Assembly (NCBI GenBank): GCA_004367505.1
Contig: SFCB01000062.1
Coordinates: 1-57,569 of the forward strand
Direction of reading: 5' to 3'
DNA length: 57,569 bases
Origin: Chloroflexi bacterium OHK40
GTDB taxonomy: Bacteria; Chloroflexota; Chloroflexia; Chloroflexales; Chloroflexaceae
Below the pieces are notes generated by a model that was given only the letters and a program-made list of their open reading frames with translations, searched no databases and had not been told where the DNA came from. Below, piece after piece: positions 30,761-47,186 of the stretch (position 1 is its first letter; the number at the start of each line of letters is the position of its first letter). The translations under genes were made by a program, and so were the position numbers.

Positions 30761-30828
30761 AGCCGCCCCAATGGGGCGGCTCTATGCCCCAATGGGGCGG
30801 CTCTATGCCCCAATGGGGCGGCTCCAGG
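30761..30828. repeat. Three 21-bp tandem repeats forming stem-loops between malQ and recF
   Basis: The 21-bp unit beginning CCCCAATGGGGCGGCTCTATG occurs at 30766-30786 and 30787-30807, with a third copy at 30808-30828 that differs in its last bases. The first copy extends into a perfect palindrome AGCCGCCCCA-A-TGGGGCGGCT (30761-30781), and each unit holds CCCC-AAT-GGGG. It lies between convergent genes, so it can act as a bidirectional terminator; the tandem duplication is unusual. Confidence 0.8.
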
Positions 30829-35189: not shown

Positions 35190-36023
35190 CTACAGGTACT
35201 CCCGCTGATTCACCCGCCGGCGCCACTCCTCGCGGATCTCCACCGGGGTGCCCTGGGAGACGAGGAAATCGAGCAGAAGCCGGGAGAAGGTATTCGACTG
35301 TTCGAGGAAGGGGAAGTGGTTGGCCTTCGGCAGCACCAGCAGCTGGGCCGACCGCTCCCCGGGATCGTTGAGGAAGCCGGCGTGGTCGGCGTTGACGATC
35401 TTGTCCTGTCCGCCGTACACGGCCAGCAGCGGCACTTTTAGCTCCTGCACAGCCGGCCGCAGGTCGGCCTCGAGGATGGAGTCCTGCACGCTGTTGAGCA
35501 CCTGCTCCGAGAGGCCATCGGTGTCCTCGTAGAGCTCCTGCTGCACCTCCGGATCAGCGATCGGAATGCTGCGCAGCAGCCGGGCCCATGCATTGGTATG
35601 GTTCCCGCCAAACAGCTTGGAGAAGGTGCCGGGCTTGATATGGCCAGCCAGCACCTGACCGTACATCGGCGTAGCCACCGTCATCACCTTGAGCACGCGC
35701 TCGGGCCGCTCATGGGCGGTGCGGATGGCGACCATCCCGCCCATGCCGTGGCCGACGAGGTTGGCTACCGGCATGCCCATCTGGTCCATAAAGCGGCAGA
35801 GCATTTCCACGTAGCCGCTGATCGAGAAGCCCGTACCACGGCGGTCGCTCTCACCGTAGCCCCAGAAATCCAGGGCGTAGGCGCGGTAGCGCTCCGAGGC
35901 AAGGTCCATCGTTGGCACCCAGTACCGCCACGAGCCGAGCCAGCTATGGAGGAAGATGATCGGCTGGCCGCGGCCGAAGACCTCGTAGTGCACCAGCCGG
36001 TTGTCCAGGTGGGTTGCGCTCAC
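35190..36023 (-). CDS. Alpha/beta hydrolase-fold protein lacking the nucleophile serine
   Basis: A 277-residue alpha/beta hydrolase. The fold is intact: oxyanion-region FLHSWLGSWRYW (24-35), AYALDFWGYGESD (49-60), acid Asp207 in VYGGQDKIV and His236 in LPKANHFPF. The nucleophile elbow, normally G-x-S-x-G, reads GHGMGG, with Gly93 at the serine position (codon GGC). That should abolish ordinary ester hydrolysis. The GTG start at 36023 overlaps the histidine kinase stop by four bases (GTGA), with GAGGAG just upstream, so it is translated with the kinase. Alpha/beta hydrolases act as sensors in RsbQ-RsbP and in plant hormone receptors; a ligand-binding partner of the kinase is my inference. A non-hydrolytic enzyme remains possible. 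Confidence 0.9.
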   Translation of the reverse strand: MSATHLDNRLVHYEVFGRGQPIIFLHSWLGSWRYWVPTMDLASERYRAYALDFWGYGESDRRGTGFSISGYVEMLCRFMDQMGMPVANLVGHGMGGMVAIRTAHERPERVLKVMTVATPMYGQVLAGHIKPGTFSKLFGGNHTNAWARLLRSIPIADPEVQQELYEDTDGLSEQVLNSVQDSILEADLRPAVQELKVPLLAVYGGQDKIVNADHAGFLNDPGERSAQLLVLPKANHFPFLEQSNTFSRLLLDFLVSQGTPVEIREEWRRRVNQREYL

Positions 36024-39000
36024 TCAGTCTCCTCGTCCACGTCGTTCGTCTCGTGCTGCTCCAGCGGCAGGATGAAGCTGAAGGTACTGCCTCTGCCTTG
36101 CTCGCTCTGCACCCACATCTCGCCGCCGTGCATCTCTACGAACTGCTTGGCGATCGCCAGGCCGAGCCCGGTGCCACCCGCTACATCGCGCAGGGGGTTG
36201 TCGGCGCGGTAGAAGGGCCGGAAGAGCTTCTTCTGCTGCTCCCGCGTCATCCCCACGCCGTTGTCCTCCACGTCTACCTGGAGCATGCTGGCGCGGTTGA
36301 GGTAGGCCCGCACGTGGATGCGCCCGCCCTCATAGGTGTATTTTACGGCGTTTGTGAACAAATTCTGAAACACCTGGGTAATGCGCTTCTGGTCGGCCAT
36401 CACGGCCGGCAGGTCCGGTGCGGTCTCTACCACTACCTGCATGGCCTTCGCCTCATACTCGAAGCGGAGCGACTGCACCACTTCATTGATCACGGCAGGC
36501 ATCTCGACAGGTGAGAAGGTAAGCTTCTTCTTGCTGTCGGGCCGCGCGAAGTCCAGAATATCCTCGATCAGGGAGCGCAGGCGGTTGGTATTGCTCTTGA
36601 TGATCTGCAGATAGCTCACCTGGTCGCTGGTCATGTGCTGGGTGCCGCTGAGGAGGAGCACATCCACATAGCCTTTGACCGCCGTCAGGGGCGTGCGGAG
36701 TTCGTGGCTCACGTCGGAGATGAACTGGCGCTTGGCGTGATCGGCCTCGATCTCGCGGGTGATATCGCGCAGCACGGCCACCTCGCCGTAGCGCTGGCCG
36801 TCGGGGCCAACCACCTGGGCCAGGTTCACGTTGATCACCTGGGTCGGCTCTGTCAGATCCAGAGTGGTAGAGTACTGCTGGCCCAGGCGCACCTGGCGCA
36901 GGCCGTTCACCAGGCCGTTATAGACCACCTGGGCCCGCCGGCGCGCTGAGTCGTCGGCGCCGAACTGCTCCAGCACACTGAGGGGCTTGCCGGTCATCGC
37001 CTCGGCGGGGATCTCGAGCACGTGTTCGGCGGCGGGGTTAAAGAGCAGGATGGTCCGGTCGGTGTCGAGCACGATCACGCCCTCGGTCACCGACTGGAGC
37101 ACAGCAGCGCTCTTGGACGTCTCCTCGCGCTGCTGTTCGAGCAGCACGGCGTTGGTACCGGCGAGGTCGTTGATGTAACTGTAGAGCTGGGCATTGGAGA
37201 CCGCCGCCGCCACCACGCTGGCGATCGTGCCGAGCAGGTTCATCTGCGAGTCGGTAAAGTAGGCCACCTCTGGGCTGGAGAGCACCAGCACGCCGAGGGC
37301 CGCATCGCTCGTCTTCAGGGGCACGGCGGCCACCGAGCGTACGTCGTCGGCGCGGCCGGGCTCTTTGATCCAGCGCTCATCGTCGAGCACGTCGGGGATG
37401 TTCACTGGCTCCTGGTGCTGCATCACCCAGCTGGCCAGGCTCTCGCCACCGTCGAAGTGGAGAGGAATACTGGCCGCCCGCACGTCGCCACGGTCGTAGA
37501 GCACGGCCCGACACACCAGATCGCCGTTCGCCGGGTCGCGCAGCATGATCGAGCCACGGGCGACACCGAGGTTGAGCGAGATCAGCTCCAGTGCCCGCCT
37601 GATGATCCCGGTGAGGTCGAGCTGGGTCGTGAGCTCCAGGGTAATGTTATGCACCGCTTCGAGGCGATCCTTCTCCTCGGAGAGCTGGCGGCCGGCCTGC
37701 TCGAGCTCGGCGGTGCGCTCACTCACACGGCGCTCCAGGTCGGCGGCCAGGTTGGAGATCTGGTCGAAGAGCCGGGCGTTCTGAATGGCCTGGCTCGCCT
37801 GGTTGGCGAGGGCGAAGGTCACCTCGACGGCGTCGGCGTCGTAGGCACCCGGCACCTCGGCACCGATGGCGAGGATGCCCACCAGTTCATTATCTACGAG
37901 CAAGGGCGCGCCGATCCAGGCCCGGGCCCGCCAGCCGAGCTCCAGAATCGGCGCGAAGCGCTCATCGTGCAGGGCGTCCTCCAGCAACACGGGCTGGCGC
38001 TCCAGCGCCAGGGTCTGCAGGAGCGGGTTCGCCTCAACATCGAAGTCGGCCCGCAGGAGACGCTGGTCGCTCAGGCCGCGCGCCTCGGTGATCTGCAGAT
38101 GGCCGTAGCCGGCGTCGCGGAGCAGCACAGCGGCGCTATCATAGCTCACCACCCGTTCGAGCTGGTCGAGGATGAGCGTCTGGATCTCGCGCAGCGCCAG
38201 GGTGGAGGTAAACGACTGGGCAACATCGCGGAGGGTGTCGGCCAGCAGGCGGCGTTGCTGCTCCAGATGGTAGAGCTGGGCGCTCTTGAAGGCCTGGCTC
38301 GCCTGGTTGGCCAGAATGGAGATCAGCGAGATCTGATGGGCGCTCCACTCGTGGGGGTGGCGGAAGCCTACCCAGAGGGCGCCGAGGCGCTCATCGTTGG
38401 AGCCGATGGCAATGCCGAGCGCGCTGCGCACGCCGAAGGCGATGGCGTCGGGGTTGGCGCCGGGGATCTGGTGCAGATCGGTGATGGCCAGCGGCTGGCC
38501 GCTCTCGAGCAGGCGGCTGGTCATCCCGTCGAGGCGGAAGCTGATCGCCAGATCCTCACGGGGCTCGCCGGCCTCCATCAGCACCTGCTGCTCGATGCGG
38601 CCCAGACGGTCCAGCCGGAGCACCGCGCAGAGCTCGGCGCCAAGCAGGCGCAGGGCGGCGTCGGCCACGAGTTGCTGGGTCTTGTCGGGCTCGAGGGTGC
38701 CGGCGAGATCCTGAGTCACGCCGAAGAGCGTCGTCATCTCGGCCGCGTTCTGGCGGGTCTCGCTGAAGAGCCGCGCGTTATTCAGCGCCACGGCCGCCTG
38801 ATTGGCCACCGTCGTGAGGAACCGCAGGTCGTTCTGGTCGAAGGCGTTGCGCTCATAGCTCTGGATGTTGATCACCCCGAGCACCGTCTGGCGGAAGAGC
38901 AAGGGGGCGACCAGGAACGACTCCTCGGTCTGGTCGCTCGCTCCAACCCGGCCGCTGTCGATATCGAGGCCCATCGCCCGGGCCTCATCGGCGCTGCGCA

Positions 39001-42000
39001 GGAGCAAAGGCTGGTGGGTACGGATCACCCAGCCATTCGTACCCTCGGGGAGGGGTCGGGCGGCGAGGTTGATGCGCCGGCCCCGGTCGTAGGCCAGGGG
39101 GTAGCTGAGCGTATTGCTTGCCTCATCGTAGAGGGCGAGCAGCGACGTGCTGACATCGATCACCTCGCCGATGCCCTGGTGGAGCGCCTCGACCAGTGCT
39201 TGCAGATCGAAGGTGGCGCTGACGGCCGCGCTGATCTTGTTGATCGTCGAGAGCTCGTTGATCCGCTGCTCGCGCTCCTCGAAGAGCCGGGCATTCTCCA
39301 GCGCCGTGGCCGCCTGGTCGGCGAGCCCGGCGAGCAGGGCCCGGTCGTCCTCGGTGAAGTGGCGCAGGTAGTTGGTCATCACGCTGAGCACGCCGATGAT
39401 CTGCTCGCGGTAGATCACAGGCACGCCCATGAAGGAGACCAGGTTGTTGTCGCGCTGGTAGGAGGGGTAGAGTGAGCCGCCGTCGGCGTTCACATCGTTG
39501 ATGATCGAGGCCTGGCCCGTGGCAGCAACCCGGCCAGTGAGGCCCTGGCCCACGGGCACGCGCATGGTCCGGCCACGCTCGGCGGGGATGCCATCGAGGG
39601 CGGCGGGCACCAGGATGTTGTCTTCGGTGATCGTCCAGAGGGCCACGGTGGTCACATCGAGCTGGCGGCTCACCAGCTCCATGAGCTTGTCGAGCACCTC
39701 CTGGGGGCGAAGCAGCGAGGAGAGGATGCGGGCGGCATCGAGCAGCGTCGTCTGCTCGCGCACCTTCTGCCGCAGACGGTTCTCGCTGGTCTGGGCGGCA
39801 GCGAAGGCCTGGGCGCGGGCGATCGCGGTGCTCGTCTGGCTGGCGATCGTCTGGCAGAGGGCGAGGGCCTGGGGCTGGAAGGTGCCCCGGCGGCCCACAA
39901 AGTCCAGGCCAACGGCGCCGATCACCTCGGCGTCGATCAGCAGGGGGATGAGCGCGATCGAGCGAATATCGAGCTCGCGGAAGGTCTGGTGGGAGAGTAC
40001 GAAGAGCGGATGCGTCTGGGCGTCCTCGGCCACCAGGGGCTGCTTGTGCTCGTCGAGCCAATCAACCGAGGGGCTGTTGGCGATCGGCACCTGGATCTGG
40101 TCGAGGATCCCGCTGGGCACGTGTTCGGCCACGGCAGGAGCCACGCCACGCGCCCGGTCATAGATCACCAGGCGGGCCTGGTCCACGCCTGTCGCGTCGG
40201 CCATGGCGTCGACGATGATCTGGTAGATGCGCTGCACGTCAGTCTCGGCACTGGCCTGCACCGAGACGCGGTTGAGCAGGGCGAGTTGCTCGACCTGCTC
40301 GCGGGCGGTGGCGAGCAGGCGGGCGTTCTGCACACCCAGGGCGAGCTGGTTGGCTACGGTGGTCATGAAGGCCAGCTCGCGCTCGCCGTACAGGTCGGGC
40401 GTATAGCTCATCACGGCCATCACGCCTACCACGCTGCCATCGCCGACGAGCAGCGGCACGCCGAGCCACGAGGCCGACTCGCGGTCACTCCCGAACCTGA
40501 CGGGCTGGAATCCGGCGGTGCGGTACTCCTTGCTCAGATCGCTGAAGCGCAGGTGGCGCCGTGTGCGAATGATCTGGGCGGTGAGGCTACTGGGGGCGGG
40601 GTGGCGGATGGAATGGTCGATCTCCTGGAAATCGCCGTCTACCTCAAAGGAGAGCACGATCTCATTCTCGGCCTCCTGGTAGACGAAGATGTAGAAGGAG
40701 TCCAGGGGGAGAAAGGTACAGAGCTGCTCATAGGTGCGCCGCAGCATGAGCTCGAGGTCGAGGGTGGAGCTGGTGATCTGGCCCACCCGGTTGATAATAT
40801 TGAGCTCGTTGATGCGCCGCTCGCGCTCCCGGAACAGGGTTGCCCGTTCCATGGCAATGGCGAGCTGGTTGGCGAGGGCGGCGAGGAACTGCCGGTCGCG
40901 CTCAGTGAAGACGTTGGGCGCGAAGTCCTGCACGCTGAGCACCCCGATCACGCGCCCCTGGCTGATCAGCGGTACCCCGATCCACGAGCGTACCTGGTCG
41001 GCGTTGTCGGCGTAGGTAATGGCCAGATCGTGGAGCTTCGGGTCGGCGGCAAGATCCGGCATGAGCAGTGACTGGCCGCTGTCGATAATCAGGCCGGTAA
41101 GGCCGCCCTTGGGGGCAACCAGCTTGTGAGCGCTGGGGAGCAGTTCGCCCTGGCGCATAAAGAGCTCGAAGCGCACCTGCTCGGTATCGGGGCGGTAGCT
41201 GGCAATGTAGAAGAAGCTGGGCGTCCCGAGGTAGGCGACGATCTCCTGGTAGACCCGCTCAAGCAGGGTGTCAAGGTCGTTGGTGGAGGTCGAGGCAGTG
41301 CCAACCTGGTAAAGGGCGGCCATCTGTTCGGCGCGGGCGCGGGCATCGCGGAGCAGGGCGTAGTTTTCAATGGCGATCGCGGCCTGGTCGGCGAAGATCT
41401 CGAGCGGCTCAACAGTGCGGGCGCTGGGCCGCTGGCGGTCCTGGGGGTCGCCGACGAACATCATGCCGAGGAGGGCGCCCTCGGTGGCGTAGAGCGGCAC
41501 GCAGAGGCGGTCGCCGGGCTGCCACTCGCCGGGGGCTCGCGCATCGGTCGAGGGGCTATAGCTAAAGACGGCCGTGTCGAAGCCCTGCTCGAACTGCTGG
41601 GCCTCCTCGGCGGGCACGAAGTAGCAGCGCCCGATCCGGAAGCGCGGGTCGAGGTAGCTGGTGGCGAGGGCGGCGGGCAGGGGCGCGTGGGCCATGCGGT
41701 CCATCTCGCTGAGCGGGATGCCGGCAGCCGAGACGGGCCGCAGCAGATCGGGGCGATCCTGGTCGGTGAGGCAGAAGAGCACCGTCCGGAAGTTCGCGCT
41801 CTCCATCGCGCTATAGCCAACCTGTTCGAGCAAGTTCTCGAGGTTCCGGTCGGCGCGGAGGGCCTGGCCGATCTCCAGCACGTTATTGAGGATCTGGGCG
41901 CGGCTCTTGTGGATGCGGTAGAGGTGTTCGAGCTCGGCGTAGCGCTGGGCGTTGCCAATACCAACGGCGGCCTGATGGGTGAGGGCGCGCAGGAACTCGA

Positions 42001-44467
42001 TTGCGTCGTAGTCGAAGGCGTGCGGGCGTAGTGCGAGCAGGAGCAGCACCCCGTAGACCCCAGCCTGGTAGAAGATCGGCACCGCGAGGGCGGAGCGCGC
42101 CTCGGTGCTGTGCAGGGCGGCCTGCTCAGCGGGTGGCAACTCGTCGCTCAGTTCGGGCTCACGCCGTTCGAGGGCCAGGAAGGCCGTTGTGGCAGACGGG
42201 GCCAGCGTGGCGCCGAGCATTGCCGAGCGGTGCGGCTCGGGGAAGCCAACCGCCTCAACCACCACGTAGGTGGGGTGGTTCGCCTCGGCTTCACCGAGGA
42301 TGCGGCGGGAGAGGTCGGGAACAGGCTGACCCCCGAGGGCGCCGAGGGCCTCCTGGCCGGCGGAGGGGTCATCGGCGGAGCGGAGGGCGATCATCCCCTG
42401 GCTGGCGCCGGTGGCGCGCAGCGCCTGCTCGAGCACATACTCCAGGATCTCTTTCTGGTCGAGCGTGATGGCGAGTTGGCTGGAGACGCGCTGGAGGGCG
42501 CGCAGCTGCTCGATGCGGGCGCGAAGGCTGGCGTCGGTCTGCCCGTAGCGGGTGGCATTGGCGATCGCCTGGGCCGACTGGCCGGCGACGATGCTGAGCA
42601 GGCGGGCGTCATCGTCGCTGAAGGCGTTGGGCCGGGCCGCGCAGAGTTCGAGCGTACCGAGCAGCTCATCACCACGGTGGAGGGGCACGCCGAGGTAGGC
42701 GCGCGCGGGGATGCCATCATGGAGGAGCAGGCCGCTGAGATCGCCGAGCTCGCTGAGCTGGGGGGGCGGCTGCTGAAGGTCGGCGATGCGCAGGGGGCGC
42801 TGGTGACGTACGATCCAATCGGTCAGGGCGGGCGCAGCCTGGGCGGGGGGCCGTAGGCCCTGCTGGGCGCCGAGGCGCACGGTGCGGGTACGGGCATCGT
42901 AGAGCGCAACGCGGGCACCGCTGAAGCGCAGCGCGCGGGCGCCGGCGAGGATGGCGTCGAGCGTCTCATCGAGGCCGAGATCGGCATTGAGGCGCTGGCT
43001 GATGCGGTGGAGGAGCTCGAGCTCGGCGGCGCGTTGCTGCTCAGCCTGGTAGAGCCGACGGTTCAGGATAGCGGTGGCCACCTGTGCCGCGAGAACCTGG
43101 GCAAGGTTGCGCTCGGAGGGGCTAACGGGCCGGCGGGGGCGGGCGTAGCCGATTGCCAGCAGGCCGAGAGTCTGGTCCTTGCCGCGGAGGGGCAGGACGA
43201 GCGCACTGCGGCAGCCATCGTCGGCCAGGGCGGCGGCGAGGGCGTTCTGGGTGGCCACCGCCGACGTATCCTCGATCAGCAGGGGGTCGCCGCGCCCGAG
43301 TTGGGCGATCAGGGCGCTGGCTCCGGGGAGCGCGGGCTCGGGCGAGCCGCCGGGGCGGGCACCGAAGCGGGCGCTATGTGCCGGCTCGACATAGGTGGCG
43401 ACGCTTCGGAGCACCTCGGGGCCATGCTCATCGAGCAGGAAGACGGCGCAGTATTCAGCCGCGAGGGCCAGGGCGATATTCTCAGTGGCCCGGTTGAGCA
43501 TATTCTCAACCAGGGTCGTCGTGGTGATCTCCTGGCTATTCTCATAGAGCACGAACAGCTCGCGGGCCCGCTGCTGCTGCTGGCTGAAGAGTTGAGCATT
43601 GCGGGTGAGGAGTGCCACCTGCTCGGCGAACACTGCGATCAGGCGCTGCTGGCGTCCAGAGGGGCCGGTCCACCCATCAGTGGGGGCCGGGCCCGTGGGC
43701 AGCACGAGCACGAGTACGCCGATCAGGAGCTCCTGGGCGATCAGCGGCAGCGCGAGCGCCGGGTGCTCGCCGGTGGGTGTGGAGGTGCCCCGTCGGCGAC
43801 TCTGGCTGGGGGCCAGGTTGCCAACCTGCGAGGTCCGTGTCGCGACCGCCTGCGCGGGCAAGCTGGATCCGGCCAGCGGTAGCCCGGCCGGGAAGAGGAA
43901 GCCGACATCGCTTGCGGCAAGGAGGGTGAGCTGGCCTTCGGACTCCTCGGGCGTATAGATCGCTGCCGCGACCACGCCAACCAGGGGTGCGGCCCGGGTA
44001 AGCATCGCGGCGAGGAGCGTGCGGGTTTCGAGCACCCCCACCAGCTCCAGGTTGGTGGCTACGAGCGAGCGGATCTGCTCAGCGATCGTGGCCTCTTCCG
44101 CACGGCGGCGGGTAAGCAGGAGCAGCGCCAGCTGGGCGGCGAGGGCGGCGGCGAACGGTGGATCGAGACTGCTGGCGCCGCCAGGGCTTCCCAGGGCGAG
44201 GCGGCCGATCAGCTCACCCTCGGCCCGGAGCGAGAGTGGCGCCGGGTCATCGACGGCATCGCCCCAGGCGGCCACGGCCACCGGCTCACCCTCCTCCAGG
44301 AGTTCAAGGCGCCCGGCCGGAGCGGGCAGGTAGCGCGCCACCAGGCCAGCCAGTTTCTCGGCGCAGTGGGCGGCGTCATAGCTCTCGGCGCCATCCTGGG
44401 CACACTGCGCGAGCTGGGCCAGAAGTTCCCAGCCAGAGGTAGAGGTCGGGGCGATCGTCGTATCCAT
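36020..44467 (-). CDS. Giant sensor histidine kinase with 13 GAF domains and a PAS domain
   Basis: A 2,815-residue cytoplasmic protein. After an N-terminal region of about 130 residues I count 13 successive GAF-type units, each opening with a helix like LLNRVS or INKISA and closing with a helix like LANQASQAIQNARLF. The units are separated by short helical linkers of 15-25 residues. A longer coiled coil (DLERRVSERTAELEQAGRQL) lies before the 13th GAF. Then come a PAS domain (VLQSVTEGVIVLDTDRTILL), HisKA (DVSHELRTP, phosphoacceptor about His2588), and HATPase_c with N (NLFTNAVKY), G1 (DNGVGM) and G2 (GGTGLGLAI) boxes. No transmembrane segment is seen. No GAF shows an obvious bilin-binding cysteine set. 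The ATG at 44467 is preferred; an in-frame TTG at 44491 is possible. A serine-less hydrolase is coupled downstream, and a REC-GGDEF-like regulator lies upstream. Confidence 0.92.
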   Translation of the reverse strand: MDTTIAPTSTSGWELLAQLAQCAQDGAESYDAAHCAEKLAGLVARYLPAPAGRLELLEEGEPVAVAAWGDAVDDPAPLSLRAEGELIGRLALGSPGGASSLDPPFAAALAAQLALLLLTRRRAEEATIAEQIRSLVATNLELVGVLETRTLLAAMLTRAAPLVGVVAAAIYTPEESEGQLTLLAASDVGFLFPAGLPLAGSSLPAQAVATRTSQVGNLAPSQSRRRGTSTPTGEHPALALPLIAQELLIGVLVLVLPTGPAPTDGWTGPSGRQQRLIAVFAEQVALLTRNAQLFSQQQQRARELFVLYENSQEITTTTLVENMLNRATENIALALAAEYCAVFLLDEHGPEVLRSVATYVEPAHSARFGARPGGSPEPALPGASALIAQLGRGDPLLIEDTSAVATQNALAAALADDGCRSALVLPLRGKDQTLGLLAIGYARPRRPVSPSERNLAQVLAAQVATAILNRRLYQAEQQRAAELELLHRISQRLNADLGLDETLDAILAGARALRFSGARVALYDARTRTVRLGAQQGLRPPAQAAPALTDWIVRHQRPLRIADLQQPPPQLSELGDLSGLLLHDGIPARAYLGVPLHRGDELLGTLELCAARPNAFSDDDARLLSIVAGQSAQAIANATRYGQTDASLRARIEQLRALQRVSSQLAITLDQKEILEYVLEQALRATGASQGMIALRSADDPSAGQEALGALGGQPVPDLSRRILGEAEANHPTYVVVEAVGFPEPHRSAMLGATLAPSATTAFLALERREPELSDELPPAEQAALHSTEARSALAVPIFYQAGVYGVLLLLALRPHAFDYDAIEFLRALTHQAAVGIGNAQRYAELEHLYRIHKSRAQILNNVLEIGQALRADRNLENLLEQVGYSAMESANFRTVLFCLTDQDRPDLLRPVSAAGIPLSEMDRMAHAPLPAALATSYLDPRFRIGRCYFVPAEEAQQFEQGFDTAVFSYSPSTDARAPGEWQPGDRLCVPLYATEGALLGMMFVGDPQDRQRPSARTVEPLEIFADQAAIAIENYALLRDARARAEQMAALYQVGTASTSTNDLDTLLERVYQEIVAYLGTPSFFYIASYRPDTEQVRFELFMRQGELLPSAHKLVAPKGGLTGLIIDSGQSLLMPDLAADPKLHDLAITYADNADQVRSWIGVPLISQGRVIGVLSVQDFAPNVFTERDRQFLAALANQLAIAMERATLFRERERRINELNIINRVGQITSSTLDLELMLRRTYEQLCTFLPLDSFYIFVYQEAENEIVLSFEVDGDFQEIDHSIRHPAPSSLTAQIIRTRRHLRFSDLSKEYRTAGFQPVRFGSDRESASWLGVPLLVGDGSVVGVMAVMSYTPDLYGERELAFMTTVANQLALGVQNARLLATAREQVEQLALLNRVSVQASAETDVQRIYQIIVDAMADATGVDQARLVIYDRARGVAPAVAEHVPSGILDQIQVPIANSPSVDWLDEHKQPLVAEDAQTHPLFVLSHQTFRELDIRSIALIPLLIDAEVIGAVGLDFVGRRGTFQPQALALCQTIASQTSTAIARAQAFAAAQTSENRLRQKVREQTTLLDAARILSSLLRPQEVLDKLMELVSRQLDVTTVALWTITEDNILVPAALDGIPAERGRTMRVPVGQGLTGRVAATGQASIINDVNADGGSLYPSYQRDNNLVSFMGVPVIYREQIIGVLSVMTNYLRHFTEDDRALLAGLADQAATALENARLFEEREQRINELSTINKISAAVSATFDLQALVEALHQGIGEVIDVSTSLLALYDEASNTLSYPLAYDRGRRINLAARPLPEGTNGWVIRTHQPLLLRSADEARAMGLDIDSGRVGASDQTEESFLVAPLLFRQTVLGVINIQSYERNAFDQNDLRFLTTVANQAAVALNNARLFSETRQNAAEMTTLFGVTQDLAGTLEPDKTQQLVADAALRLLGAELCAVLRLDRLGRIEQQVLMEAGEPREDLAISFRLDGMTSRLLESGQPLAITDLHQIPGANPDAIAFGVRSALGIAIGSNDERLGALWVGFRHPHEWSAHQISLISILANQASQAFKSAQLYHLEQQRRLLADTLRDVAQSFTSTLALREIQTLILDQLERVVSYDSAAVLLRDAGYGHLQITEARGLSDQRLLRADFDVEANPLLQTLALERQPVLLEDALHDERFAPILELGWRARAWIGAPLLVDNELVGILAIGAEVPGAYDADAVEVTFALANQASQAIQNARLFDQISNLAADLERRVSERTAELEQAGRQLSEEKDRLEAVHNITLELTTQLDLTGIIRRALELISLNLGVARGSIMLRDPANGDLVCRAVLYDRGDVRAASIPLHFDGGESLASWVMQHQEPVNIPDVLDDERWIKEPGRADDVRSVAAVPLKTSDAALGVLVLSSPEVAYFTDSQMNLLGTIASVVAAAVSNAQLYSYINDLAGTNAVLLEQQREETSKSAAVLQSVTEGVIVLDTDRTILLFNPAAEHVLEIPAEAMTGKPLSVLEQFGADDSARRRAQVVYNGLVNGLRQVRLGQQYSTTLDLTEPTQVINVNLAQVVGPDGQRYGEVAVLRDITREIEADHAKRQFISDVSHELRTPLTAVKGYVDVLLLSGTQHMTSDQVSYLQIIKSNTNRLRSLIEDILDFARPDSKKKLTFSPVEMPAVINEVVQSLRFEYEAKAMQVVVETAPDLPAVMADQKRITQVFQNLFTNAVKYTYEGGRIHVRAYLNRASMLQVDVEDNGVGMTREQQKKLFRPFYRADNPLRDVAGGTGLGLAIAKQFVEMHGGEMWVQSEQGRGSTFSFILPLEQHETNDVDEETE

Positions 44468-44615
44468 AGGGCCTACGGGCCGCTCCTGCAAGGGCGTATG
44501 CTGGCAGTATCGGGGCGGAGCGTGTCATCGAACGACACGGCGGGGCATCGCACGCTGAGCCCGCTAGTATAAACGGGGTTACGGCCTGTTTCGGGTGGGG
44601 GAGGTGCCACAGACA

Positions 44616-44679: not shown

Positions 44680-45630
44680 CTATTTCCGGTTGCGGCCGTA
44701 GGCCACGGCGCTCTTACGGCCCTGCTCTCGGGCCTGGTGGACGGCGCGCTGGCGGGCTTCTTCGGCCGTCTCACTCAGTTCCCGAATGTCGTAAAAGGGA
44801 CCATCGTTGCTGGTCAGCACGCCGATAGAGATCGACATCAAGGGTACGGGGCGCAGCTCACCCTTCTCGTCCGGCACCTCGATGAATCCCTGGCGGCGAT
44901 GTTTGAAGTTGTAATGGAGGCCGATCTCATCATCGAAACGGGCGAGCAGGCGCTCGCAGATCGGCCGGATGCGCTCAGGCGCCGAGGTGATCACAAAATC
45001 AGGGCCAACCACCATATGGCCGATGAACTCCTCGGTACCACCCTGCTCATTGATCGCCTCGTTGAGCAGGAGGGCGGTGAATTTGAGCACATCTTCGCCG
45101 ACTACCGAGCCATAGCTCTGGGTGAAGGTCTCGAAGCCATTGATGTGGATGAGGGCCATCGCCCAGCCCTGGGTCGAGAGCAGGGAGCGCAACTGATCGT
45201 TAATCAGCTCGGCGGTAGGGAGGTTCGTCACCGGGTGGAGTTGGTTCTTGCGGCGGGCCTCTTCCAGCTGATTGCGAACGATCGTATGCACCTCTTCGAT
45301 ATCGAAGGGCTTCACGATATAGTACTGCGCCTGCACCTCGCCGAGGCCGCGCAGGCGGTCGGTGCGCTCGCCGCGGGCAGTGAGGAAGATGATCGGGATA
45401 TGGCGGGTGCGGGGGCTGGCCCGCAGCGCCTTGCCGATCTCGTAACCCTCCATATCGGGGAGGTTCACGTCGAGCAGGGCGAGGTTCGGGGGCGTCTTGC
45501 TGCAGATCTCCAGGGCCGTAGCGCCGCGCATCGCGGTAAAAACCTCGTAGCCCTGGGAGGTGAAGTAGATCTTCAGCAGACTGGAGATATCGGCCTGGTC
45601 CTCCACGACCAGAATGCGCTCTTTACTCAC
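44680..45630 (-). CDS. Response regulator with degenerate GGDEF domain
   Basis: A 316-residue protein. The receiver (1-120) is complete: Glu/Asp pocket at VVEDQ, phosphoacceptor Asp54 (LALLDVNLPD), Thr84 and Lys107 (YIVKPFD). The second half resembles a GGDEF domain (HPVTNLPTAELINDQLRSLL opening, later SISIGVLTSND). The catalytic motif GG(D/E)EF is replaced by VGPDF (in HMVVGPDFVI), so diguanylate cyclase activity is unlikely; it may bind nucleotide or a partner. The GTG start at 45630 overlaps the upstream beta-helix gene by four bases (GTGA). It precedes the 13-GAF kinase on the same strand and is a candidate receiver for it. Confidence 0.88.
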   Translation of the reverse strand: MSKERILVVEDQADISSLLKIYFTSQGYEVFTAMRGATALEICSKTPPNLALLDVNLPDMEGYEIGKALRASPRTRHIPIIFLTARGERTDRLRGLGEVQAQYYIVKPFDIEEVHTIVRNQLEEARRKNQLHPVTNLPTAELINDQLRSLLSTQGWAMALIHINGFETFTQSYGSVVGEDVLKFTALLLNEAINEQGGTEEFIGHMVVGPDFVITSAPERIRPICERLLARFDDEIGLHYNFKHRRQGFIEVPDEKGELRPVPLMSISIGVLTSNDGPFYDIRELSETAEEARQRAVHQAREQGRKSAVAYGRNRK

Positions 45631-47186
45631 CGGTCAATCCTCCTCGCGCTGGCGGACGCGCCGACGGCTGGGCGATCGTAGTTGAGCGAGATGGCGTCTT
45701 CGCCGGGGCCCTCCACGCCGGTCGTGGTGGCGGGGCGGGCGCCGTTGGCAGGAGCGGGCGGATCCTCGGGCGGCGTGATTCGCCGCTCGGCGGGGTCGTC
45801 GTAGACGGTGGGCCAGTGGTACACGATCCGGCGCGGCTCCCCGCTCGCATCGTCGAGATCTTCGAGGTCGTGGCCGGCTACCGTCTTGCGGATCAGGCTC
45901 TTCTCATCATCGAAGATTATAACAGCATTCGACTCAATCATGCGACCAGGGTAGACGACGAAGCCGCTGCCGAGCTTGACATTGTGGCCCACGGCGGAGC
46001 CGAGCACCGGCATATTGACCTCGACTGGTCGTCCGTGGTGCATGACCTTGATCGGCTCGTTCTGAAGGTTAAAGTCGGTGAAGCAGTTGTTGGCGCCGAT
46101 GAAGGTATTGCGGCCAACGACACAGAGTTGCAGGGTGGAGTTCTGGGCCACCATGCTATTCTCCATGAGCGTCGTCATAAACAGGCCGGCGTTAAACGGC
46201 AGGAAGCAGCGATCGCTCACCACGCTGAGCATGATCTGGCTGCCCTGCATCACATTTACGTTGTTGCCGATGATGCTGTTAGCGATGACAACGCCAGGGC
46301 CGATATAGACATCATCCCCGATCACTGTAGGGCCGTGAATGATGGCGGTCGGATCGATCGATGCGCGCTTGCCGACCTTCACGAGGGCGCGGGAGGCGAG
46401 GAAGTGATTGCGCCAGGGATCCTCGAAGGGGTTGAGGCGCTGCCAGATCGCGGCGGCGGAGAAGGCCACCTTGCCCAGGAAGGTGCGCCAATCCTCGGGT
46501 CGCCAGCGGAGGATGTCCTTCAGGCGGGCCTGGCCCATCTTCACGTCCTGGACGGCGGCTTGCGAGAAGACCCCCATGAGCACATTGGCCATGAAGACGT
46601 GGACCCAGTTCTCGACGGAGAGGAAGGCCCGCAGAGGGATCTGGTAGGTCAGGTCGCCCTTGCTCGCCATATAGCTCGGGATATGGTAGTAGCCCATCTC
46701 GTGGCTCTGGGTATCGATCACGAGCGGGGTGGGTTCATCGCGGCGACCGGCGGGGAAGTAGTAGAGCTCGGCCACGAAGAGATCGCCGCGCAGCTCCTCG
46801 CCGTCGCGGATGTAGGCGCTGTCCTCGCGGCGAACAATGCCGGCGCTGAGCTGGGTGGCGTGGCGGGCGATGCTCTGATCGGTCAGGGCGAAGCCGATCT
46901 GTACCGGGCGAGCGGCGCGGCGCGCCTCGCTGATAAAAGCGTCGATCAGCGCGGCGTTGAAGAAGAGATTGTCCCGGTAGACGAGCAGTTCCCGATCGGC
47001 AAGGGGGACGCGCTCCTCCAGTTCATCGATCGAGTCGATCTCACTGCTCCCCTTGCAGTAGCTCTTCAGCAGATCGCGCTGGAGCAGCCAGAGGGGCTTA
47101 TTGAGGATCCGAAGCTCGCGGGCAGGCTCGGCGAAAGGGGGGATTGGGGTGTAGTCTCGGATGATGACTCGCTCGATCCGCTCCAT
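45627..47186 (-). CDS. Left-handed beta-helix protein with nucleotidyltransferase-like N-terminus
   Basis: A 519-residue protein. Residues about 280-440 form a left-handed beta-helix of hexapeptide repeats (ASIDPTAIIHGPTVIGDDVY, then IGPGVVIANSIIGNNVNVM and later GSAVGHNVKLGSGFVV), the fold of acyltransferases and GlmU-type C-termini. The N-terminal 240 residues loosely resemble sugar-1-phosphate nucleotidyltransferase relatives (LNKPLWLLQRDLLKSYC, VYRDNLFFNAALIDAF), but I see no clear nucleotide-binding glycine loop. The last 70 residues are Pro/Ala-rich and look disordered. Two good promoters lie upstream. It is coupled by GTGA to the REC/GGDEF-like gene. The enzymatic activity is unknown; a scaffold or modified-sugar role is possible. 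Confidence 0.75.
   Translation of the reverse strand: MERIERVIIRDYTPIPPFAEPARELRILNKPLWLLQRDLLKSYCKGSSEIDSIDELEERVPLADRELLVYRDNLFFNAALIDAFISEARRAARPVQIGFALTDQSIARHATQLSAGIVRREDSAYIRDGEELRGDLFVAELYYFPAGRRDEPTPLVIDTQSHEMGYYHIPSYMASKGDLTYQIPLRAFLSVENWVHVFMANVLMGVFSQAAVQDVKMGQARLKDILRWRPEDWRTFLGKVAFSAAAIWQRLNPFEDPWRNHFLASRALVKVGKRASIDPTAIIHGPTVIGDDVYIGPGVVIANSIIGNNVNVMQGSQIMLSVVSDRCFLPFNAGLFMTTLMENSMVAQNSTLQLCVVGRNTFIGANNCFTDFNLQNEPIKVMHHGRPVEVNMPVLGSAVGHNVKLGSGFVVYPGRMIESNAVIIFDDEKSLIRKTVAGHDLEDLDDASGEPRRIVYHWPTVYDDPAERRITPPEDPPAPANGARPATTTGVEGPGEDAISLNYDRPAVGASASARRIDR

Follow-up and report, generated by a model that had tools for sequence, protein, structure and literature searches.

Tandem-GAF multi-sensor kinases, cyanobacteriochrome kinases among them, are soluble trains of GAF domains in which helical linkers precede a HisKA/HATPase core. 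Sections of one article (PMC6798134) describe PAS and GAF domains in tandem as regularly spaced and their linkers as heptad-periodic; in coiled-coil terms, a four-residue shift is given there as a stutter. The same sections present two engineered receptors: YF1, in which linkers of 7n and of 7n+1 residues invert the response, and YHF, which places two sensors in one receptor. In the relevant parts of another article (PMC1592074), the tripeptide ERT is the signature of the signaling helix (S-helix), and the coils between prokaryotic GAF domains are described as antiparallel. In the RsbQ–RsbP pair, as portrayed in portions of a third article (PMC3183031), an α/β hydrolase gene adjoins that of a PAS-containing signalling protein.

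The locus that we describe here lies in a 57,569-nucleotide stretch of Chloroflexi bacterium OHK40 (contig SFCB01000062.1 of assembly GCA_004367505.1), the whole of which we call the window. It encodes a soluble histidine kinase with a train of 13 GAF domains (Table 1). Taken alone, this kinase belongs to a known kind, of which it is a long example. Among the matches listed in searches of the CC-licensed PMC literature, no paper dealt with either the kinase or the four-gene cassette to which it belongs.

Results

A single kinase frame with thirteen GAF domains

The open reading frame of the kinase runs over 36020..44491 on the minus strand, and would encode 2,823 aa if the start is TTG, or 2,815 aa from the ATG at 44467. 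Pfam places 13 significant stretches in this frame for each of the models GAF_2, GAF and GAF_3, together with a single PAS, a single HisKA and a single HATPase_c domain; a genome-wide GAF search finds 13 matches in the frame at the same positions. Hence 13 GAF domains stand in series above cut-off in a protein class for which at least two are needed. The domain search thereby bears out the original prediction, made from the letters alone, of 13 GAF units, one PAS and one HisKA/HATPase core, the count being no lower than was proposed. Elsewhere in the genome there are 96 other GAF hits (109 in total), and no frame that holds them exceeds 1,771 aa. The boxes that define a histidine kinase are intact: SHELRTPL (with His2596), NAVKYT, DNGVGM and GTGLGLAI.

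Also as predicted, the kinase has no credible membrane segment: its most hydrophobic 19-residue interval (residues 246–264, mean 2.45) was considered as a membrane helix and rejected, because the predicted model puts the final two strands of GAF1 there, and no helix. A further candidate, that the frame is an assembly fusion of two kinases, was likewise rejected: relatives of about 2,800 aa, 60% identical from end to end, occur in single-contig genomes (G006, G007 and G009) and in many others, and it is because full-length relatives sit in such genomes that we take the frame to be one intact gene. All 41 genomes of the family match the kinase at E ≤ 1e-100, many of them over the full length at 60–73% identity, and records of Chloroflexaceae, Oscillochloris and Herpetosiphonaceae are among the named relatives, from which the order is probably Chloroflexales. 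It had been suggested that few soluble kinases carry so many sensor domains; this does not hold within the kinase's own family and order, where such trains are the rule.

Ahead of GAF1, a fold prediction for residues 9–490 made with 30 relatives (mean pLDDT 89.1) yields a compact α-α-β-β-β-β-α unit without the segment that covers the ligand pocket. This order of elements, which is that of a GAF domain, and a weak HMM match (0.041) hint that the unit may be a GAF-like cap, which we name GAF0; the VIA-align rows for the N-terminal model concentrate on residues 175–478, and barely cover the cap (18–148).

Table 1. Features of the kinase and its cassette, in coordinates of the window.
Feature	Coordinates	Strand	Basis or remark
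Nucleotidyltransferase-fold + left-handed β-helix protein (predicted)	45627..47186	-	Shares 4 nt with the start of the regulator
Response regulator, intact receiver + degenerate GGDEF (VVGPDF)	44680..45630	-	Domain and motif reading
Multi-GAF soluble histidine kinase	36020..44467	-	2,815 aa from ATG 44467; TTG 44491 alternative start
Possible GAF0, compact GAF-like N-terminal cap (residues ~18-148)	44048..44440	-	Predicted fold; weak own-HMM match 0.041
GAF1	43610..44023	-	Pfam + genome-wide GAF search
GAF2	43067..43507	-	Pfam + genome-wide GAF search
GAF3	42563..42973	-	Pfam + genome-wide GAF search
GAF4	41957..42454	-	Pfam + genome-wide GAF search
GAF5	41369..41842	-	Pfam; genome-wide search aligns C-terminal part only
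GAF6	40850..41278	-	Pfam + genome-wide GAF search
GAF7	40337..40759	-	Pfam + genome-wide GAF search
GAF8	39821..40240	-	Pfam + genome-wide GAF search
GAF9	39299..39706	-	Pfam + genome-wide GAF search; most conserved, mean 73% to orthologues
GAF10	38783..39208	-	Pfam + genome-wide GAF search
GAF11	38291..38689	-	Pfam + genome-wide GAF search
GAF12	37784..38194	-	Pfam + genome-wide GAF search
Long linker 12, S-helix ERT signature	37619..37783	-	Length 56 residues with uniform HMM boundaries; 55 in these coordinates
GAF13	37199..37618	-	Pfam + genome-wide GAF search
PAS	36761..37105	-	PF00989, 3.5e-09
HisKA, H-box SHELRTPL, His2596	36533..36736	-	Pfam + motif reading
HATPase_c, N, G1 and G2 boxes	36059..36394	-	Pfam + motif reading
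α/β hydrolase-fold protein	35190..36023	-	Begins at a GTG, with a 4-nt overlap on the kinase stop; Gly93 at nucleophile, HS for HG

Linkers in two phases

The linkers that join the GAF domains obey a strict rule of length. Measured across 56 loci, with one GAF model for all units and with the exclusion of pairs whose HMM ends were missed by more than 4 positions, 531 GAF–GAF linkers (not 531 events, because the loci of one family are related) comprise 31 residues (335 linkers), 38 (101), 35 (43), 56 (43), 49 (8) and 32 (1). That is, 530 of the 531 have one of five lengths that differ by heptad or stutter steps and that fall into two phases, 31+7n and 35+7n, four residues apart. Among orthologues of the family, linker length is near-constant at each position and changes almost only by a heptad; the lengths of the domains GAF1–4 themselves are variable. 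Furthermore, the linkers are better conserved among orthologues (means of 63–84%) than are the GAF cores (39–73%). These two properties lend support to the lever-like rod that had been offered as one reading of the train.

Proline makes up 0.08% of linker residues, against 6.0% of those in the window GAFs. The hydrophobic repeat peaks at 110 degrees in linkers of 31 residues and at 106 degrees in those of 38; in linkers of 35, 49 and 56 residues the peaks are at 128, 165 and 164 degrees, not near 100, and the argument for a helix therefore rests on the 31- and 38-residue linkers and on the predicted helices. Another distinguishing feature of the long linkers is the ERT signature, present in 40 of the 51 that have 49 or 56 residues and in none of 479 others. 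In the window it is linker 12, between GAF12 and GAF13, that bears this mark of an S-helix (SERTAELEQ). Downstream, the distance from GAF13 to the kinase histidine is 166 residues in 35 of 52 frames, and otherwise 163–168, and once 144; it is not locked.

We considered whether the heptad rule is special to this kinase, and rejected that idea: control GAF tandems obey it too. The two phases accommodate 30 of 32 GAF pairs in other proteins of the same genome and, among the matches listed, 36 of 40 pairs in two genomes from other families of the order and all 10 pairs from three genomes that belong to other groups; these totals stood at 33, 45 and 12 before poorly reached ends were set aside. The own-genome control takes in all 96 non-window GAF rows; those from other genomes are limited to GAF rows that have another one close by on their contig (26 of 138, and 76 among the matches listed), with cassette kinases left out. 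For all control pairs, Pfam ends were corrected on the assumption of no gaps, and the binomial p-values assume independence and are a rough guide only. The phases themselves were set by eye from the GAF hits of the window and its own genome; the other-genome sets came afterwards. Given that the controls fit these two phases, the linker rule is a general grammar of GAF tandems, here followed at great length. The inversion of YF1 output by linker length supplies a reason for guarding such lengths.

An accordion of orthologous GAF units

The 13 GAF cores of the kinase differ from one another, as had been noted at the outset: their pairwise identities are 11–33%, with a mean of 21%. The GAF-by-GAF phylogeny that the original prediction recommended was built from 238 domains (the 13 of the window, those from 16 relatives and a selection of paralogues from the same genome), and, with mixed branch supports, it clusters the window GAFs mostly with their counterparts at the same position in chains from other genera, and frequently from other families. 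Recent tandem duplication inside this gene is rejected, as was anticipated, because the window GAFs group with those counterparts and not with their same-chain neighbours, and their cores are divergent. Two relatives (L142 and L144) do have lineage duplications of the GAF7 and GAF10 types, a point that the prediction had missed.

Across 52 loci, scored with class models, the number of GAF units is 13 in 22 loci, 12 in five, 11 in three, nine in nine, seven in one and six in five, with one locus each at five, four and one; at the long end are 14 in one, 16 in one and 17 in two. Contig ends or breaks in the frame account for some of the low counts (for example in L138, L141, L140 and L085), and counts from the class models and from a general model differ by one here and there. 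Three loci (L021, L023, L024) duplicate the contigs of L079, L072 and L140, which are of equal length, and were dropped from the residue, linker, ERT, GAF-order and kinase-motif counts; they are still present in gene-order listings. In L085, L097 and L140 the kinase frame is in two or more pieces, either by assembly error or by a true split.

Most of the long trains contain duplications of the GAF7 and GAF10 types, and most of the short trains have lost GAF8, GAF11 or GAF12, and N-terminal units. In the minimal relative (L098, 735 aa, from a genome that is 81% complete) there is only the N-terminal region, GAF13, the PAS domain and the kinase. The GAF train is, by analogy, an accordion: one that extends from 1 to 17 units while orthology is preserved position by position.

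Such extension invites the alternative that the train is a scaffold or ruler, in which most GAFs no longer bind ligands; the rod would dimerise and space the kinase from a partner, or gather the cassette proteins, and signalling would be left to GAF13–PAS and the cap. The survival of relatives with anything from 1 to 17 GAFs is in keeping with a ruler, as are the lesser conservation and variable length of GAF1–4 and the two fixed ends (the N-terminal region and GAF13–PAS–kinase). We nevertheless find this alternative doubtful, if worth keeping in mind: the positional identity of the GAFs is maintained across families, and GAF5, 8, 9 and 13 are conserved at 66–73%, beyond what a spacer needs.

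The partner proteins

The model of the first protein of the cassette has a mean pLDDT of 71.6 and is weak at about residues 161–340; from Foldseek and VIA-align matches over residues 4–459 we assign it a predicted two-domain fold, nucleotidyltransferase plus β-helix. It aligns with ST0452 chains at Z 19.6–19.9 (5z09_F, rmsd 5.3 over 302), with 7d72_A (GMPPA/GMPPB) at Z 15.9 (rmsd 3.8 over 269) and with 5b04_I (eIF2B) at Z 15.5 (rmsd 4.3 over 287), all of these rows having only 11–16% identity. The usual G-rich nucleotide-binding signature was not seen by eye in this protein.

In the regulator, the receiver residues E10, D11, D54, T84 and K107 are those of a response regulator, and are invariant in all 56 copies (residue counts for regulator and hydrolase include the window copy). 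Its output domain has VVGPDF in place of GGDEF or GGEEF: the first Gly is missing in 55 of 56 copies and the Asp in every one. Also of note are two longer paralogues of the regulator (65–70% identical) that are fused to HATPase_c: L154:1867-4890 (1,008 aa) and L155:1192-3774 (861 aa).

The cassette hydrolase has lost its nucleophile: Gly replaces Ser at this position in 53 of 54 copies, and in 53 of 54 the oxyanion motif HG has become HS (Ser27 replaces Gly). Asp207 and His236 are invariant (54/54), such that the Ser-Asp-His triad of an active RsbQ-like hydrolase is reduced to Asp and His. The sole exception is a more distant Chloroflexia record (L022), in which both of the usual residues are present. 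A second hydrolase gene, which genomes of the order carry outside the cassette and which is 37–46% identical, has an intact GHSMGG elbow and HGW motif in the five of five that were read (L149–L153).

Could the cassette hydrolase still be an enzyme, acting through Ser27 of its HSW motif, or by His and Asp only, and making a ligand for the GAF or PAS domains as has been proposed for RsbQ–RsbP? The invariance of Asp207 and His236 and the prevalence of Ser27 would agree with that, and RsbQ, in the portions of PMC3183031 that treat it, does need its triad; yet the elbow serine is the very residue that the cassette copies have exchanged for Gly and that the paralogues outside the cassette retain. 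We judge continued catalysis to be improbable.

A conserved four-gene cassette

Another key result, missed by the original prediction, is that the kinase belongs to an ancient and conserved cassette, with the order nucleotidyltransferase-like/β-helix protein, receiver plus degenerate-GGDEF regulator, kinase, α/β hydrolase. This order is kept in nearly all fetched loci that have enough flank, from all four families of the order, and the outer neighbours (uvrA, for example) change between loci. In the window the two 4-nt overlaps, β-helix protein with regulator and kinase with hydrolase, both read GTGA; the regulator and kinase are separated by 212 nt, and because of this gap co-transcription of the whole cassette is only inferred. 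Promoter and terminator counts are near the shuffled mean (3 versus 1.5 and 3 versus 4.4) and were unused. In L142 and L144 there is an extra lone receiver-like frame (134–143 aa) between kinase and hydrolase. Elsewhere in the window, at 30765–30824, a perfect 21-bp tandem repeat of 2.9 copies lies between two genes.

Searches of 82 genomes belonging to the order detect the regulator in 69 of them, the hydrolase in 67 (matches that include a less similar paralogue, the sole one in G053, G062 and G066) and the β-helix protein in 65. All three partners are absent from the same 13 genomes (G057, G058, G071–G081), which represent two genera of one family; the remaining misses (G010, G030, G054, G061) are in genomes that are 80–88% complete. 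In class genomes outside the order, the regulator is found in 2 of 76 at E ≤ 1e-60. That this is an ordinary Chloroflexota multi-sensor kinase, whose neighbours reflect stable gene order with no functional link, is the least credible alternative: multi-GAF proteins are indeed common in this genome, with its 109 GAF hits, but the order is kept in all four families, two of the junctions overlap and the three partners are jointly absent.

Discussion

We propose that the kinase is a dimeric coiled-coil rod that may integrate many inputs and phosphorylate the neighbouring regulator, with the hydrolase in a non-enzymatic role; we rate this reading at a little better than even (about 55%). The domains, the state of the motifs, the linker lengths and the gene order are direct observations; that the kinase dimerises, that its helices are continuous, that its inputs add up, that phosphate passes to the neighbour and that the hydrolase has a docking or receptor role we infer. 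A cytoplasmic and probably homodimeric kinase would carry its cap, 13 GAFs and PAS domain along a spine of nearly unbroken helix; each GAF, according to its state, would shift the register or twist of a parallel coiled coil, and these shifts would sum along the rod, with the S-helix ahead of GAF13 serving as a gate. The summed state would then govern both the autophosphorylation at His2596 and the passage of phosphate to Asp54 in the receiver of the adjacent regulator. The regulator's degenerate GGDEF domain may work through binding and not through c-di-GMP synthesis, and the co-translated hydrolase, devoid of its nucleophile, could be a docking or ligand-receptor subunit. Since the linker phases agree, the rod could take on or shed GAF units and stay intact. 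Counting against this picture are the hydrophobic peaks of the 35-, 49- and 56-residue linkers, the variable spacing between GAF13 and the histidine, the antiparallel coils described between prokaryotic GAF domains, the generality of the heptad rule, the 212-nt gap and the broken kinase frames of some relatives.

A more speculative extension, drawn by analogy and in our opinion unlikely, is that the cassette is a lineage-defining integrator whose components are degenerate enzymes: partners changed at their active sites, such as the hydrolase that lacks its nucleophile and the GGDEF domain that lacks its motif, would feed or read the GAF rod, and the two linker phases would set the sign of each input. 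The nucleotidyltransferase-like protein is perhaps a third partner of this type. If this were so, the heptad/stutter grammar would let evolution add and remove inputs like beads while the signal phase was kept, and a choice between 31+7n and 35+7n would set sign in the manner of 7n versus 7n+1 in engineered YF1.

The cassette provides a natural setting in which to study how a single protein brings together the many signals that a cell receives. Its orthologues form a series of 1 to 17 GAFs in which the ends, the regulator and the partners stay the same, and in which one can test directly whether inputs are additive and what linker phase means; it also draws attention to a hydrolase that lacks its nucleophile as a two-component partner.

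Compared with the tandem-GAF multi-sensor kinases, whose soluble architecture it shares, this kinase has 13 GAFs (up to 17 in relatives) and lies in a four-gene cassette that is found across an order. The ERT-bearing linker between sensor domains is common to linker 12 and to the S-helix, as the latter is set out in those parts of PMC1592074; here, however, it is a single linker out of 12, and one that itself varies by one heptad (49 or 56). RsbQ–RsbP is the nearest precedent for a hydrolase gene next to that of a PAS-containing signalling protein; it differs in that RsbQ, according to the same portions of PMC3183031, requires its catalytic triad, whereas the cassette hydrolase has Gly and the output is a kinase with a GAF train. 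What is new is the combination: a four-gene cassette with a nucleophile-less hydrolase, and a GAF accordion of 1 to 17 units built on a fixed linker grammar.
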